DNA of 31,183 bases from a virus. Position 1 is the first letter of the stretch; every line of letters starts with the position of its first letter. The notes under the pieces were generated by a model. That model had not been told where the DNA came from. It saw only the letters and a list, made by a program, of their open reading frames with translations, and made no database searches. The stretch is taken from the IMG/VR virus record IMGVR_UViG_3300025769_000515, positions 1-31,183 of that record; one strand, given 5' to 3'. Shown one piece after another: positions 1 to 24,391 of the stretch. The translations under genes were made by a program, and so were the position numbers.

Positions 1-451
1 ATAACATTTCTTTATCTGTAAGTGTTTTAATTCCAAAAGGTAAATAGTATTCATAGTTATTACCAACCATTTCACAAACACCCTTAAAAGAACGTTGAGC
101 GTAATACTCGCCTTGTTCTGTATCAAAATCTAATACATACTTATCGGCTTCTCTACATGAAACTATATTAGGAAAATACTCATTTGCATTACCACCAATG
201 TAAGAAGCCGCAACAGCTCTTTTAAAAAATGATTTTTTAGATTTTTGAGGTGCTACTATTGCACTCATTTCACCATAAGTAAAAGTAGCGTTTAAATAAC
301 TCTTATCTTTATAATCGTGATGACCTATACCTAAAGCAATTGGTGGTGCTTGTATTTCTTTATTAACATCAACAAAACATTCTTTATATGCTTTATCAAA
401 ATCAAATTTACTTTCGTTATTATTAAAATCTTCTAATTTTAGTTTTTCCAT
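1..451 (-). CDS. RecA/DnaB-type AAA ATPase, probable replicative helicase (5' part only)
   Basis: I translated this from the ATG at 451; 150 codons are visible before the left edge. The segment APQKSKKS (residues 67-74) sits where a Walker A loop is expected, after a short strand (EMSAIV). It is degenerate, lacking the usual second glycine, as in some phage RecA/DnaB-like ATPases. The segment YVLDFDTEQ (105-113), followed by YAQRS, resembles the strand and acidic residues after the Walker A helix in AAA_25/RepA-like helicases. It is the last gene reached by the early replication operon, which fits a helicase or recombination ATPase. The C-terminus is missing; the right-edge fragment at 31059-31183 may be its end if the genome is circular. 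ATPase class is fairly secure, exact role is inferred. Confidence 0.65.
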   Translation of the reverse strand, partial: MEKLKLEDFNNNESKFDFDKAYKECFVDVNKEIQAPPIALGIGHHDYKDKSYLNATFTYGEMSAIVAPQKSKKSFFKRAVAASYIGGNANEYFPNIVSCREADKYVLDFDTEQGEYYAQRSFKGVCEMVGNNYEYYLPFGIKTLTDKEML

Positions 452-810: not shown

Positions 811-1590
811 TTATTCTTTTTTATCACCGTAAAGATATTTATTTTTATCGTTATACGCTTGTAAATACCTCTCAAATTCTTTTAAAAAATGCACTGGCGT
901 TGTTCTTAGCGTGTCAATTCCTTTAGGCATTATCTGTTGTTTAAAAAGCCCTAGCATTGCATTATGTATTTCTTCTTGCGTATAAGCGTTACTAATTTCT
1001 TTAAACTGTTCTCTTGAATCATTGCTAGAAAGTCTTTTAACATGACTTGGTTTTTTAAGTATTTTAAATCTTAACTTATTCCAATCTTTTAAGAATGTTT
1101 CTAATTGATAAATTGTTTTACTTTCTATTTCATCTTCTATTTCATCTTCATATTCTACTTCATATTCTACTTCTATTTTTCGAACCCCTGCGAACCCATT
1201 GCAAAGGGTTTCAAACCCTTGTTTTGTTTCTTGTAACTTATTGACGCCCTTTATTTTAAGTTTTTTAGGTAATTCATTATAAGTTCTTATTGCTGATTTC
1301 ATCATATTAAAGTTATAATTTTGATGCTTTAAGAAATTAAGCAATAAAACCCTGTTTTCAGCATATTTGATTTTATTTTTAACTTCAAATTCTTTTAGGT
1401 ATTTTTCAATATCTTTCACAATTATACCAGTTTCAAAAGACACCTTTCTTAATGAAATCTCATAAACCCCTAACATATTTGTTTTTTCGTTAGTAACTAA
1501 GTAAATAAATAAAAGTTTAGCTGACGGTTCTAATAATTCAAACCACGTATCTGACCATATTGCAGTATTTAAACTTCTTAATTTACTCAT
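811..1590 (-). CDS. Phage replication protein with N-terminal winged helix (DnaD/replisome-organiser-like)
   Basis: The N-terminal 70 residues (SLNTAIWSDTWFELL, then KLLFIYLVTN and GVYEISLRKVSFETG) match the winged-helix domain found at the start of phage replisome organisers and DnaD-like proteins: short helices, a wing, then a second helix bundle. Residues about 140-160 are an acidic linker, and the C-terminal part (160-259) is helical and charged, suited to binding helicase or DNA. In the known family such proteins recruit the replicative helicase to the origin. The gene overlaps the upstream nuclease gene by 4 nt (ATGA), so the two are translationally coupled. The DnaD-like assignment is from pattern only. 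Confidence 0.65.
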   Translation of the reverse strand: MSKLRSLNTAIWSDTWFELLEPSAKLLFIYLVTNEKTNMLGVYEISLRKVSFETGIIVKDIEKYLKEFEVKNKIKYAENRVLLLNFLKHQNYNFNMMKSAIRTYNELPKKLKIKGVNKLQETKQGFETLCNGFAGVRKIEVEYEVEYEDEIEDEIESKTIYQLETFLKDWNKLRFKILKKPSHVKRLSSNDSREQFKEISNAYTQEEIHNAMLGLFKQQIMPKGIDTLRTTPVHFLKEFERYLQAYNDKNKYLYGDKKE

Positions 1591-2051
1591 GATAATTTGT
1601 TTTTAAATCCACTTTCAGTTAGCTTATATCCTGATTCATAATTGAAAGAAATACCCTCAAAATTATAACTATAAGAATAATTAATAATGTTTTCCATAAA
1701 ATCATCTAAAAAAATATAATCACTAACAGTGTCTATTTCTCTACCTATTAAAACCATTCTTATTTCAACAAAACCACTAAAGTTTCTGTAATTCACATAT
1801 TCTCTAATGCCTTTAGCATACCTAAGACATTGCAAAAAAGCAGAAATACCAGCCTTATCTTTTTTAAGTTCGTAAACCGTTATATGTAAAATCCTACCCT
1901 CTCTTACCACAGTAACAATATCTGCAACTCCATAGTTTCCTATCCTTAGTTGTCTATATTTTTTACCAAGTATAGAAAGACCTCTATCTCTTAGCTTTTC
2001 ATTATCTGTGGTGAATATGATTTCTTCCAAATCTTTCTCTAATATATTCAT
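1587..2051 (-). CDS. PD-(D/E)XK-like nuclease, 154 aa
   Basis: The core reads YGVADIVTV (D44) then ITVYELKK (E61, K63), the spacing of the D...ExK catalytic signature of PD-(D/E)XK nucleases, with the strand-strand-helix order expected around it (helix at 68-85). Typical members are phage-encoded endonucleases, resolvases or restriction-like enzymes. It is the first gene downstream of the structured RNA at 2070-2155 and overlaps the next gene by ATGA. Its start is the ATG at 2051. It might process replication intermediates alongside the Rad52-like and SSB-like proteins; the substrate is unknown. Confidence 0.55.
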   Translation of the reverse strand: MNILEKDLEEIIFTTDNEKLRDRGLSILGKKYRQLRIGNYGVADIVTVVREGRILHITVYELKKDKAGISAFLQCLRYAKGIREYVNYRNFSGFVEIRMVLIGREIDTVSDYIFLDDFMENIINYSYSYNFEGISFNYESGYKLTESGFKNKLS

Positions 2052-2069
2052 ACATTCCGTATTTAAATT

Positions 2070-2155
2070 ATAAAACCCCTTTACCGTTCGGGATGCAGCC
2101 TACTAAGTAAAAGGGTTTAACCAATATTTTTATGTAAGTTTCTGCATCAAACTTG
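2070..2155 (-). ncRNA. Candidate ~85-nt kissing-loop small RNA (or structured 5' leader)
   Basis: Read on the minus strand from just after the promoter at 2159-2189. Hairpin A: AAGTTT (2154-2149), loop GATGCAG (2148-2142), AAACTT (2141-2136), a 6-bp perfect stem with a 7-nt loop at the predicted 5' end. Hairpin B: AAACCCTTTTAC (2118-2107) with GTAAAGGGGTTT (2084-2073), a 12-bp stem that is complete only in the minus-strand RNA because one pair is U-G, followed by U-rich sequence. The 22-nt loop of B contains CTGCATC (2098-2092), the exact complement of the whole loop of A. Promoter, paired loops and a terminator-like stem make a small RNA plausible. Alternatively it is the leader of the nuclease gene that starts 19 nt after stem B. 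Confidence 0.6.
2073..2118 (-). terminator. Terminator-like 12-bp stem-loop
   Basis: The 12-bp stem (2107-2118 with 2073-2084, loop 22 nt) is followed on the minus strand by TTTTATAATTT. It lies between the SSB-like gene and the nuclease gene, so it could attenuate the early operon as well as end the small RNA. The U-tract is interrupted, so termination may be partial. Confidence 0.45.
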
Positions 2156-2158
2156 TTG

Positions 2159-2189
2159 CAAATATACAACTATTTTTTAAAACGGCAAA
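2159..2189 (-). promoter_or_regulatory. Bacteroidota-type promoter TTTG-N19-TATATTTG
   Basis: On the minus strand TTTG (2189-2186) is followed by exactly 19 nt and then TATATTTG (2166-2159). This is an exact match to the Bacteroidota housekeeping promoter (TTG-N19-TAnnTTTG). Transcription would start near 2154, at the first base of hairpin A. The promoter overlaps the 3' end of the SSB-like gene. Confidence 0.75.
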
Positions 2190-2542
2190 TCATTATCTTC
2201 ATTTTCTCCAATAGGTTCTAATATATTATCTATAACCTTAGCAGCTTCTTTAACAGCATCTTCAGCCTTAAATACTTTCCATGCTTCAATAGTATTAAAA
2301 TATTTTGTTTCGCCCTCTTTATTAGTCCACTCGCGACCTCTTAGGTTAATACTAACATTAACAACATCACCAACCTTATTGTATTTAATAACGTTATCTG
2401 CTTTATCTTTGTTAGACTGTAATTGAATAGTCTGAGGATATTGCTCTTTAGTTTTTACAACCCATTCTACACAAGTAAAATCTTTGTTAGGAAATGTTTT
2501 TAATTCTCCTATTTTAATAATTTCTACATTTTTTAATTCCAT
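2177..2542 (-). CDS. Single-stranded-DNA-binding-like OB-fold protein (DUF3127)
   Basis: The protein has the features of DUF3127, an SSB-like family common in Bacteroidota and their phages: a strand-rich core with VEWVVKTKEQYPQTIQLQ, then VGDVVNVSINLRGREW and KYFNTIEAWKV. The acidic tail ends in DLPF, like the C-terminal acidic tip (DDxPF) by which bacterial SSB recruits partner proteins. In the early operon it most likely coats ssDNA during phage replication and Rad52-type annealing. It sits between the DnaA-like gene (2-nt gap) and the structured RNA. Family assignment is strong, the precise role inferred. Confidence 0.8.
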   Translation of the reverse strand: MELKNVEIIKIGELKTFPNKDFTCVEWVVKTKEQYPQTIQLQSNKDKADNVIKYNKVGDVVNVSINLRGREWTNKEGETKYFNTIEAWKVFKAEDAVKEAAKVIDNILEPIGENEDNDLPF

Positions 2543-5148: not shown

Positions 5149-5179
5149 CAAATATATAACTTTTTATTTAAATTACAAA
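5149..5179 (-). promoter_or_regulatory. Bacteroidota-type promoter TTTG-N19-TATATTTG
   Basis: TTTG (5179-5176), exactly 19 nt, then TATATTTG (5156-5149) on the minus strand, identical in both boxes and spacing to the promoter at 2159-2189. It overlaps the stop codon of the metallophosphoesterase gene, and only a terminator follows within 80 nt, so it must serve a short RNA or readthrough. Confidence 0.7.
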
Positions 5180-11199: not shown

Positions 11200-11730
11200 T
11201 TAAGGTGTTACATTCGTCACACTTACTAAAGCGTCTAATGCTGTTATTGTTGCAGCGTCTAAATAAGGAGCTACATCAGTTTCAGTTGCTGTAAATGTTA
11301 GGTTATAACCGTTAAATTCTGCTTTAGCACCACCTGAGATAATGTCACCAGTACAAGCTGTGCCATCTGATATACCCATTATTTTATAGTTATCCATTCT
11401 GTCCTGAACTACTACAATTGGTCTTGCTTTTATTACTAATGCTAATTCTCTAGCACTCGCTAATGTTTGTTTCTTTAATACAACCGCTAAAGACTGTTCG
11501 TAAGTACTAGTACCTGCGTTTATGTCTTGTGTAAATGGCTCGTTAAATGTATTACCGTCTGCTAACAATTCATATTTGTAAACAGCAGTAATCGCCACGT
11601 TTATAGCTGTTGCTTCGTTACTCGTAACGGTAAAACTATCCTCAATGTAATCTAGCAAATAAATGGCTTTTAATCCACCAATCGCATCGCTACATGGTTC
11701 TGTTCTTCCGCTTGTTAATACACACGCCAT
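11200..11730 (-). CDS. Major tail tube protein, 176 aa
   Basis: A beta-rich, alanine/threonine-rich protein of usual tail-tube length with no long helices. It lies between the major capsid gene and the portal operon and is flanked by a terminator on each side, as expected for a strongly expressed structural gene. A paralogue is encoded at 7853-8431, sharing IGGLK, LKKQTLA and SGGAKAEFNGY. The C-terminus (PYLDAATITALDAL) is helical. Tail tube assignment comes from composition, size and neighbours, not from a signature motif. Confidence 0.65.
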   Translation of the reverse strand: MACVLTSGRTEPCSDAIGGLKAIYLLDYIEDSFTVTSNEATAINVAITAVYKYELLADGNTFNEPFTQDINAGTSTYEQSLAVVLKKQTLASARELALVIKARPIVVVQDRMDNYKIMGISDGTACTGDIISGGAKAEFNGYNLTFTATETDVAPYLDAATITALDALVSVTNVTP

Positions 11731-11788: not shown

Positions 11789-12706
11789 CTAGTTTCCTGC
11801 GTTAGTGATACCGTAAGTAATCACATCTTCTGGATTGGCGCAAACCACACCATCAGCCCATTTCATAACAACGTTTACATTGTTAGAACCATCTAAAGGT
11901 GATTGGTCGATAACATCAACTCTTTGAGCATCACCAGCCGAACCTACACCATACCAAAGGTTTTCAGCGTAAGTAGCAAACATTACATCATCAGAAAGAC
12001 CTGAACAATGGATTAATGGAACGCCTTGAAAAGTTAATCCAGCTCTACGCTCATTAAAAGCATCATAAGCTCCTAAAGCTGCTTGTGCTTGAATATAAAA
12101 CTTATATGCTGCTGTTGAAATTCTAATTGCAAAAGATTCTTTAGAAAATAAAGCACTTGAAGCTGCGTCAATTACTTTTTCTAATTCAGCTACAATATTA
12201 GCTTTAGTTAAAGTAGTACCAGCAATTTCATAACCAGTAGGTTGCAACGCTTCGCTTGTAAATAATGCCTCAAAACCGTTAAATTCTCCTTCTGTTGCAG
12301 CAGCACCTTGCCATATAGTGTTTTCTCTTGATTCTGCTACTTCAGCACCTACTAAACTAACTAAGTAGTTAGCGAATTCTGAAGCTAAACCTGCGTGAGC
12401 AGATGCAGCCATTTTATCAAATGTAGGTCTGTAGTTAGACTTGCATAATTTAGTATTAACCTCAAATTCTTCTACGGTTAAAACTCTCTCGTTTCTTGTG
12501 ATAGTTCCTACATCTGTAAAATCACAAGTGCTATCTGCTATAAGACCTGATAAGTTAACTCGTGGTAAATTCCACTTGTAACGAATCCCATCCATTAAAT
12601 CAACACCACCGTTTACGATAGATGTTGGTTCTTTTAATACTGCTGAAAAATACCTACTTGCGGCTTCGCCAGCATAATTTGAACTAATTGTTTCTGTTGT
12701 TGCCAT
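11789..12706 (-). CDS. Major capsid protein, 305 aa
   Basis: The length and composition fit a HK97-fold capsid protein of Bacteroidota siphoviruses: the N-terminus (NYAGEAASRYFSAVLKE) is a helical arm, then an early domain with KWNLPRVN, a P-domain helix (FANYLVSLVGAEVAESRENT), ISTAAYKFYIQAQAALGAYDA, and GLTFQGVPLIHCSGLSDD near the end, a motif typical of the A-domain. It follows the protease/scaffold and decoration genes in canonical order and precedes the terminator at 11746-11774. No additional Ig-like domain is present. Confidence 0.8.
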   Translation of the reverse strand: MATTETISSNYAGEAASRYFSAVLKEPTSIVNGGVDLMDGIRYKWNLPRVNLSGLIADSTCDFTDVGTITRNERVLTVEEFEVNTKLCKSNYRPTFDKMAASAHAGLASEFANYLVSLVGAEVAESRENTIWQGAAATEGEFNGFEALFTSEALQPTGYEIAGTTLTKANIVAELEKVIDAASSALFSKESFAIRISTAAYKFYIQAQAALGAYDAFNERRAGLTFQGVPLIHCSGLSDDVMFATYAENLWYGVGSAGDAQRVDVIDQSPLDGSNNVNVVMKWADGVVCANPEDVITYGITNAGN

Positions 12707-22417: not shown

Positions 22418-24391
22418 TTAAGCAGCACCACCATCTGTGATAGCACCCCATTTTGATATTAAACTTGTTCTTGCTGCTTCAGCTGCTCCACCACTCGTAT
22501 ATGTAGAACCACCAAAATCAACCGTTCCACTGTAACTCATTACTCCTTGTGCGTCCCAAGCGATTAAAAGAGCGTCATAATTTGCAGTAGATAAGCCAGT
22601 TGCAGTTTGCATAAATCCAACAAAAAGTGTTACCTGAGTAACTTGCCAACTGCTAATATCTTGGTCAAATGAATCTGCATTGTAAAAAACATTTCTCATA
22701 TCTATAATAGAAGAAGTGTCCCATGAGTTTAAAGGTTGGTTAAACACATCACAATCTCTAAACATTCCTTGAATTATCGTTACATTTGAAATATTCCATG
22801 AGTTTAAAGGCTGATTAAAAGCATTATTATTAAAAAAGAAAGAATCCAAAGACTCAACATTTGACATATCCCAATCACTTATATCTGTATTAAATCCTAA
22901 TGCAGATGTAAACATTTTGTCCATGTCAGTTAGAACGTTTAAATTTGGTTTATCCGTAGCTGTTAAAGTTGTAATAAACTCACATCCTCGAAAACTAGAA
23001 TCAAAACTTGTCCAAATATTAGCACCCCAGTTTTTAATATCAATTAATTTGTTTTTATCACCGCCATTATTAAAATTAATATGAGTACCACCAGTTACCT
23101 TAACTTCATAAGTACTAGCAATTGAATAAGTATGCGTTTGCGTTCCGCTTTGTGCTAAGTCTGTGTTTCCATCACCCCAATCAACATCGTAAGTACCAGT
23201 AATCATCGGTAATGTAAATTGGTCGTTATTAGACGTACCGACATTGTCCGTTTTAACAGAAATTATAAATTCTGGTGCATACAATGTACAACCACTATCT
23301 AATCCACCATCTATAATAGCTCCCCATTTTGTAACTAAAGATGCTCTAGCTATCTGTGCAGCTTCACTACAATATTTGAATGTTCCAAAAGTAGCTGTGC
23401 CAGAATAAGACATAGCACCTTGTGCGTCCCACCCTATCAATAAAGCATCATAGTTAGCTGTTGACATTCCATCACAGTTAGAAAACACTCTAAGTATTTG
23501 CGTAGCTTGGTTTATATCCCACCCACTTATATCTTGGTCAAAGGTGTCGTTATCTCTAAACATATCAGCCATTAAATTAAATGCTGTTGTTGTCCAACCA
23601 CCAATATTAGTTGTGTTAAAAGCTAATGCGCCTCTAAACATACTTGTTGTGTTACTTACACTTGAAACGTTCCAAGCACTTAAATCTTGATTAAATGCTA
23701 AACAATCTCTAAAAAGGTCTGTCATATTTGTAACGCTTCCAGTACTCCAAGATGAAATGTTACCATTGAAATTAGTGTTTTTATAGAATACACTCGACAT
23801 AAGCAATGCGCTTGATGTATCCCAAGAATTTAAGTCTTGATTGAAATTAGTACAACCGTAAAACATTAAACTAAATATATCAACTATTGAAACATCCCAA
23901 TCGTCCATGTTACTAACAGTTGTTAGATTTGTACACCCTCTAAACATTCCTTGTAAAGTTGGATTCGCACCTGTTAAGCCACTTAAATCTGGCGTATCTG
24001 CTGGAGTTACTGCTGTTAAAGCGGTACAACCTTCAAAGGCATCTAGCATGGTCGTCCATTGACTTGTTCCCCAATTTGAAATGTTTAATAATTTTAAACA
24101 ATCACCACCATTATTAAAATACATTTGTGTTCCACCAGTTACTTTAATTTCATAAGTACCAGCAGACGAATATGTATGAGTTTGCGCACCGCTTTGTGCT
24201 AAATCAGTATTACCATCCCCCCAATCAACGTCATAAGTACCAGCTACCATAGGTAGCGTAAATTGGTCATTATTAGACGTACCAGCATTGTCCGTTTTAA
24301 CAGAAATTATAAATTCTGGTGCACCACCACCACCACCTTTAGGTTTCCAACCTTGCGAACTAATACCTATGCCAAAACCAATACCTCCCAT
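22418..24391 (-). CDS. Duplicated BspA/DUF285-type repeat protein with PKD-like modules, 657 aa
   Basis: The protein is two homologous halves. Each begins with PEFIISVKTDN and QFTLPM, followed by a PKD-like module (YDVDWGDGNTDLAQSG, THTYS, STYEVKV or GTYEIKV). Then come BspA-type leucine-poor repeats (pattern MF..C..FNQDL..WD.S.V), and a shared end (LSTANYDALLI, WDAQG, MSYSGT, KWGAI). BspA/DUF285 repeats occur in adhesins of Bacteroidota and Firmicutes. There is no signal peptide, so it is a virion or tail component rather than an exported host protein, probably a side fibre or adhesin. Half A runs to about residue 373 and half B from 374. Confidence 0.75.
   Translation of the reverse strand: MGGIGFGIGISSQGWKPKGGGGGAPEFIISVKTDNAGTSNNDQFTLPMVAGTYDVDWGDGNTDLAQSGAQTHTYSSAGTYEIKVTGGTQMYFNNGGDCLKLLNISNWGTSQWTTMLDAFEGCTALTAVTPADTPDLSGLTGANPTLQGMFRGCTNLTTVSNMDDWDVSIVDIFSLMFYGCTNFNQDLNSWDTSSALLMSSVFYKNTNFNGNISSWSTGSVTNMTDLFRDCLAFNQDLSAWNVSSVSNTTSMFRGALAFNTTNIGGWTTTAFNLMADMFRDNDTFDQDISGWDINQATQILRVFSNCDGMSTANYDALLIGWDAQGAMSYSGTATFGTFKYCSEAAQIARASLVTKWGAIIDGGLDSGCTLYAPEFIISVKTDNVGTSNNDQFTLPMITGTYDVDWGDGNTDLAQSGTQTHTYSIASTYEVKVTGGTHINFNNGGDKNKLIDIKNWGANIWTSFDSSFRGCEFITTLTATDKPNLNVLTDMDKMFTSALGFNTDISDWDMSNVESLDSFFFNNNAFNQPLNSWNISNVTIIQGMFRDCDVFNQPLNSWDTSSIIDMRNVFYNADSFDQDISSWQVTQVTLFVGFMQTATGLSTANYDALLIAWDAQGVMSYSGTVDFGGSTYTSGGAAEAARTSLISKWGAITDGGAA
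23214..23279. repeat. Direct repeat copy 1 within the BspA-like gene
   Basis: These 66 bp match 24258-24323 with only three differences, at an offset of 1044 bp (348 codons). They encode the start of the second half of the protein and show recent duplication. Confidence 0.85.
24258..24323. repeat. Direct repeat copy 2 within the BspA-like gene
   Basis: Partner of 23214-23279. Flanking sequence on the low-coordinate side is also similar between the copies, although more diverged, so the duplicated unit is longer than the 66-bp core. Confidence 0.85.

Follow-up and report, generated by a model that had tools for sequence, protein, structure and literature searches.

The window, by which we mean the whole stretch of DNA analysed here, corresponds to a viral record 31,183 bases long whose minus strand carries nearly all genes. 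The element under study lies between a gene for an SSB-like protein, whose 3´ end is overlapped by the element's promoter, and a nuclease gene on the minus strand whose ATG is at position 2051 (Table 1). Location of the element in the early region, as the first-pass annotation had it, was borne out. The nuclease matched the NCBIfam NucS model at 7e-6, which is below that model's cut-off, and its AlphaFold2 structure (pLDDT 90.6) was similar to NucS (2vld) and EndoMS (5gke) in Foldseek, with E values of about 3e-4. When a viral library was searched by fold with the nuclease, named relatives were confined to proteins of PD-(D/E)XK type, and the partial ORF running off the record had no PHROG match. 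Elsewhere in the window, a 657-residue protein (22418-24391, minus strand) contains four stretches of DUF285 (BspA-like) repeats and a PKD-like domain; it is probably a tail or host-binding protein.

Table 1. Features of the element and its neighbourhood in the window, with RNAs of selected relatives
Feature	Position	Strand	Basis or remark
Partial ORF running off record, RecA/DnaB-type ATPase by eye	2..451	-	Walker-A-like APQKSKKS
DnaD-like helicase loader / replisome organiser, overlaps nuclease gene	811..1590	-	PHROG 1701 5e-13
PD-(D/E)XK nuclease, 154 aa, NucS/EndoMS C-terminal-domain-like, first gene behind the RNA	1587..2051	-	
ACGGAATGT directly 5´ of ATG	2052..2060	-	sequence; kept in 24/72 nuclease loci
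T tract TTTTATAATTT, interrupted, 3´ of hairpin 2 stem	2065..2076	-	sequence
Hairpin 2 AAACCCTTTTAC..GTAAAGGGGTTT, terminator-like 12-bp stem, 22-nt loop	2073..2118	-	sequence; -15.5 kcal/mol
Loop 2 segment CTGCATC, exact complement of whole loop 1	2092..2098	-	sequence
Linker, 17 nt, A/T-rich	2119..2135	-	sequence
Hairpin 1 AAGTTT-GATGCAG-AAACTT, 6-bp stem, 7-nt loop	2136..2154	-	sequence; -2.0 kcal/mol fold
Loop 1 GATGCAG, kissing partner of 2092-2098	2142..2148	-	helix covariation in relatives
Promoter TTTG-N19-TATATTTG, Bacteroidota-type -33/-7	2159..2189	-	exact match; kept in nearly all relatives
SSB-like protein (DUF3127), upstream of element	2177..2542	-	PF11325 5e-19, PHROG 4932 6e-31
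Relative L018: CGTTG-aGTAGACG-CAACG with CGTCTAC			
Relative L019: GCTTAG-AGGTCGAAGC-CTAAGC with GCTTCGACC			
Relative L097: loop CGTCCAC with GTGGACG			
Second RNA GTAG-a-GTCGTCG-CTAC with CGACGAC	L195 (tooticki6-1) 11590-11689; L184 2596-2696		

Read directly on the minus strand, all coordinates and pairings given in the first-pass annotation proved right. TTTG-N19-TAnnTTTG occurs exactly twice in the window against a chance expectation of 0.48. One occurrence is the promoter of the element; the only other (5149-5179, minus strand) has no kissing layout behind it according to our detector. From the promoter motif, the transcript is predicted to start at about 2154, which places hairpin 1 at the RNA 5´ end, and relatives possess an equivalent hairpin. 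The stem of hairpin 2 can be extended by 1-2 pairs and includes one U-G pair, possible only in the minus-strand RNA. In many relatives hairpin 2 is followed by a T run and forms a complete intrinsic terminator; since the T tract of the window's own element is interrupted, its terminator signal appears weak and termination there may be weak as well. The site directly before the ATG is probably a translation-start context outside the RNA fold. Its motif, ACGGAAYGT, is common to those 24 nuclease loci despite differing RNA sequences before it, and is possibly a translation-start or operator signal of the nuclease family. The heptamer GATGCAG is found at seven sites in the window (1.5 expected), two of which are the element itself.

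A detector of the full architecture matched one of 55 promoter-like sites in the window, namely this element, and 0.18 sites per window after shuffling. When only the 120 nt 3´ of the promoter were shuffled, the architecture appeared in 11 of 5000 shuffles. Minimum free energy folding of 109 nt was unremarkable (z -0.63), as the method takes no account of loop-loop pairs. It is comparison with relatives that provides the strong evidence for the element.

Homologues of the nuclease, 32-55% identical and originating from viral contigs, have upstream regions that are almost wholly different in sequence. In most of these regions TAnnTTTG is nevertheless followed by a small hairpin and then by a terminator hairpin whose loop 2 includes an exact complement of loop 1, and in one subfamily both loops have exactly 7 bases in most members. 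Nuclease relatives devoid of the RNA include L038, L102, L107 and L110. Since the sequence is not conserved, blastn searches of the phage collection with RNAs of two relatives returned chance matches only, and relatives were reached via proteins and via scaffold patterns with free loops, the latter scanned in viral contigs with no use of the protein. Scaffold-pattern matches mostly had no nuclease behind the RNA. The detector yielded at least 86 distinct RNA-gene combinations, 77 distinct RNAs and 44 loop heptamers, several of which occur within shared scaffolds; these counts are lower bounds, the detector being blind to members with longer or imperfect loop matches, and a few listed detections may be due to chance, as shuffles attain a score of 20.5. 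Pattern matches L156, L158, L159, L162, L163 and L167-L169 lacked the structure and were discarded as chance.

A covariance model of one subfamily (R1) found one copy per locus, with no further subfamily-A copies in any of them. No copies were detected by it in 299 genomes of one bacterial family, and the element was absent from these genomes in the search combining this model with one pattern. No Rfam 15 family reached the gathering threshold in the window or in 15 relatives, the literature searched holds no description of this RNA, and the papers on Mumin and North Sea flavophages mention neither small RNAs nor terminators, so the initial remark that no RNA of such layout had been described still stands. 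The RNA is apparently an undescribed regulatory one, widespread in phages of Flavobacteriia and related hosts.

Variation around the element was also seen. Three loci (L045, L088, L091) carry an extra hairpin of about 35-40 nt between promoter and hairpin 1. In seven others (L036, L037, L051, L061, L067, L089, L105) an opposite-strand GGGGG..CCCCC hairpin with a T run is located just upstream of the promoter of the kissing RNA, and some of them have a TATCTTTG-like box between the two; hairpin and box perhaps specify a short divergent transcript.

Alignment of 23 sequences (A2) allowed us to examine the loop-loop helix. Its seven pairs are standard in 97.5% of cells, compared with 66.6% after shuffling of partners and 25-55% after sliding the helix by 1-3 columns. 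In 47 loop-loop cells both sides have changed, a number reached by no shuffle, and the covariation score of the helix is 0.802 vs 0.198. Over the whole structure 92.1% of cells are paired (79.8% in shuffles) and 18 pairs have changed on both sides. Compensatory change in both loops, named at the outset as the decisive test of their pairing with each other, is thus massive. Because the long stem holds many G-U pairs across relatives, the sense RNA would be the selected molecule, in agreement with the earlier proposal of a function at the level of RNA rather than DNA. These data argue for a kissing-loop RNA, putatively intramolecular, in which pairing between two complementary hairpin loops is preserved by compensatory change.

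Next, we considered the genes behind the RNA. Across the 86 combinations, first genes belong to 15 unrelated protein clusters; the nuclease is the first gene in a cluster of 45 instances, the window included. In L141, L145 and L154 the RNA is identical through the terminator and the genes behind it differ. Behind the RNA, relatives have DnaD-like loaders or several families of replication initiators, in some cases preceded by one small ORF, and next in the operon comes a DnaB-like helicase or a primase/helicase wherever the contig extends far enough. Judged from these gene orders, the constant companion of the RNA is the replication operon and not the nuclease. The suggestion that the RNA regulates the nuclease gene was therefore not supported, the same RNA heading 15 unrelated first genes, and a nuclease-specific leader, a type III toxin-antitoxin and a guide RNA were dropped for the same reason.

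The start codon lies at a median of 12 nt past the terminator stem (10-90%: 4-33; range 2-46) in 84 of the 86 combinations, the longest frame behind the RNA shares its strand in 82 of 82, and no TAnnTTTG is found between terminator stem and start codon in the 86 distinct combinations. A standard promoter is too large for most of these gaps, so the operon would most simply be transcribed by read-through of the terminator hairpin, although a phage-specified promoter of another type may be present between RNA and gene. This predicted read-through is the main argument for a leader acting in cis.

The layout is also present in cultured phages. It directly precedes replication genes in Flavobacterium phages tooticki6-1, snork6-2, lillamy9-1, hattifnatt9-1, hemulen9-1, 11b and elemoA, Tenacibaculum phage JQ and Olleya phage Harreka_1. 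By eye, we recognized it before replication genes of Cellulophaga phages phi13:2 and Nekkels_1 as well, the Nekkels_1 case having been seen by eye only and missed by the detector. Tooticki6-1, in whose record this RNA is at about position 12,625, infects Flavobacterium sp. LMO6, and Nekkels_1 infects Cellulophaga HaHa_2_1. One or two small ORFs separate RNA and replication genes in several cultured phages, and in the five phages of the Mumin group a terminator-like hairpin with a T run separates the SSB gene from the promoter of the element. Tooticki and three relatives harbour a second RNA with loops (GTCGTCG/CGACGAC) different from those of the first. Its terminator reaches the ATG of an endonuclease gene of HNH/NUMOD4 type, and the two RNAs of the tooticki genome have orthogonal loops. 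A variant of the layout precedes the portal gene of Nekkels_1 (L196, 10066-10198). There, a T run already trails hairpin 1 (GTCCACT-ACCTTAC..), and GTAAGGT is found in the loop of a second terminator hairpin; this may be a double-terminator version heading a structural operon.

Comparison of closely related RNAs revealed how the loops evolve. For this we took disjoint pairs of RNAs with no more than 5% difference in the 5´ part outside loop 1; in these, loop 1 differs at 17 of 84 positions (20%) and the flanks at 11 of 448 (2.5%; Fisher p=2.7e-8, a nominal value that treats positions as independent, so that the direction is what counts). Loops thus change about 8 times faster than their flanks while staying matched. 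Every change in loop 1 is accompanied by an equal change in loop 2 (5 of 5 pairs; 9 of 9 at a 15% threshold), which is partly built in, as the detector demands matched loops; the rate contrast between loop 1 and flanks is not. RNAs of L170 and L173, for instance, have no flank differences in 38 positions, and their loops are GTCGCAT/ATGCGAC and GTGAGAG/CTCTCAC. Sequence is conserved on both sides of loop 1, which disfavours simple exchange of the downstream half. Such fast yet matched change suggests selected pairing specificity, possibly acting also in trans between copies of the RNA, and hints that viruses of Flavobacteriia and related bacteria possess a hitherto undescribed RNA switch that carries an identity code of its own.

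We consider it probable, judging from sequence comparison, that the element is a conserved phage-borne leader RNA which gates the replication operon in cis by premature termination, by structure at the start codon or by both, tuned by loop pairing. An intrinsic-terminator hairpin between a promoter and the start codon of the operon it serves, the arrangement by which an attenuator leader is recognized, is predicted here. Transcription would start at the TAnnTTTG promoter just 5´ of hairpin 1, so that the 5´-most hairpin presents loop 1. RNA polymerase would then make the terminator hairpin, whose loop 2 can pair fully with loop 1, and the replication operon (a small ORF or the nuclease where present, then initiator or DnaD-like loader, then helicase/primase) would be expressed by read-through of this hairpin. 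Contact between the loops would set how often polymerase or ribosome passes, and thereby alter read-through or translation of the first gene. Loop pairing and terminator stem are not mutually exclusive, and by eye we noticed no conserved antiterminator; pairing could consequently either help or hinder termination in vivo. The terminated by-product, predicted to be about 85-100 nt long and to contain both loops, could find its partners exclusively among new transcripts of the same phage, which would provide self-specific feedback. The initial description of a stand-alone small RNA of about 85 nt is in this respect partly retained, since such a terminated species is expected, and partly displaced by the leader, which is favoured by the start codon lying no more than 46 nt past the stem in 84 of 86 combinations.

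A purely cis-acting role, taken alone, leaves the fast divergence of the loops unexplained; among versions confined to cis and versions combining cis with trans, only trans action of the terminated RNA would account for code-like loops. Tentatively, loops of accumulating terminated RNAs may pair with new transcripts of phages of the same type and promote or relieve termination in the replication operon, in a way similar to P4 CI RNA immunity or to the attenuators that control plasmid copy number. Feedback on copy number, or mutual exclusion of relatives during co-infection, would result, and selection would diversify the loops. Consistent with such regulation in trans are the in-place switching of loops, always as a matched pair and roughly eightfold faster than flanks, the repertoire of 44 heptamers, several of them within shared scaffolds, and the orthogonal loops on two RNAs of one genome. 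In pT181-type attenuators, too, it is altered kissing loops that confer orthogonality (PMC4878617), and the element sits at the head of a replication operon as in P4 (PMC4825925). Intramolecular pairing only 50 nt away should, however, compete with pairing between molecules, and lysogenic immunity in the P4 sense is unlikely because the element is absent from the 299 genomes of one bacterial family. That loops form an RNA identity code of each phage lineage, terminated leaders pairing in trans with leaders of the same code, is likewise a possibility that we put forward with reserve.

It is improbable that the RNA is a free-standing small RNA with its own terminator and with targets in the host or in other phages, the downstream gene being merely adjacent and the loops following targets or host defences. 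In favour of this reading are the promoter of the RNA itself, the strong terminator of most relatives, the fast evolution of the loops and the fact that the RNA of L141, L145 and L154 is identical through the terminator before different genes. A free gene of this kind, however, needs neither a same-strand ATG at a median of 12 nt past the stem (84 of 86) before 15 unrelated genes, in gaps devoid of promoter motifs, nor a terminator loop that perfectly complements loop 1. The vicinity of initiator genes would be explained if the element acted as DNA at the replication origin, its inverted repeats being recognized by the initiator, or if it served as a replication primer. Either is highly improbable, because the G-U pairs of the stem are strand-specific, promoter and T tract keep a fixed order, sequences change freely with no shared iteron, and a second copy precedes an endonuclease gene. 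Scarcely credible is an RNA antitoxin, inhibitor or guide for the adjacent nuclease, similar to type III toxin-antitoxin operons. The nuclease does lie behind the RNA and its terminator-like stem throughout the 45-instance cluster that includes the window, but the same RNA precedes many other genes, it is a single unit with no tandem repeats, and the protein has a NucS-like fold and not that of ToxN.

The cis leader that we prefer would be of interest since phage gene control is barely known in Flavobacteriia and related hosts, and this RNA is placed where the phage commits itself to replicating its genome. In their behaviour the loops resemble a specificity code under selection, and phages in culture whose hosts are known carry the RNA. 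Bacteroidota have few tools of this type, and leader pairs that are orthogonal by nature could supply them with RNA parts. An identity code, if true, would set the timing of replication or exclude co-infecting relatives with the same code and spare others, its loop repertoire being diversified by selection in the manner of plasmid incompatibility groups, only in phages.

Type III toxin-antitoxin systems such as ToxIN are arranged in the order promoter, structured RNA, terminator and nuclease; their antitoxin RNA consists of tandem repeats and their partner is an endoribonuclease of ToxN/AbiQ fold. Members of the present group that bear the nuclease show the same order, but differ in having no tandem RNA repeats and a PD-(D/E)XK fold of NucS/EndoMS type, and in that the RNA also precedes other genes. 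Copy number of ColE1 and R1 is controlled by kissing loops, that is, by loop-loop recognition acting on replication genes. In pT181-type attenuators, kissing loops with changeable specificity control a replication gene via a terminator in its leader (PMC4878617). Loop-loop recognition of changeable specificity at replication genes is common to these plasmid systems and to ours. Theirs relies on an antisense RNA from the opposite strand, whereas here both loops belong to one sense RNA, and by eye we noticed no opposite-strand promoter in the window element. pT181 additionally has an antiterminator, of which no conserved counterpart was noticed by eye here.

IsrK of Gifsy-1 is a prophage RNA that exists as a short, terminated, trans-acting form and as the leader of a read-through mRNA; the account in PMC4825925 describes for it neither a paired-loop architecture nor rapid matched loop evolution, and its host belongs to a different phylum. 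In phage P4, transcription is terminated prematurely at the head of the replication operon with the help of short complementary leader segments (PMC4825925); processing of the leader yields CI RNA, whose pairing partners are target sites on its flanks. Unlike in P4 CI, the partners in our element are two hairpin loops, one of them within a terminator-like hairpin, the phages are those of Bacteroidota, and the element was not seen in the bacterial genomes searched (299, one family). Both are replication-operon leaders with self-complementary segments (seqA/CI/seqC in P4), with termination predicted in ours.
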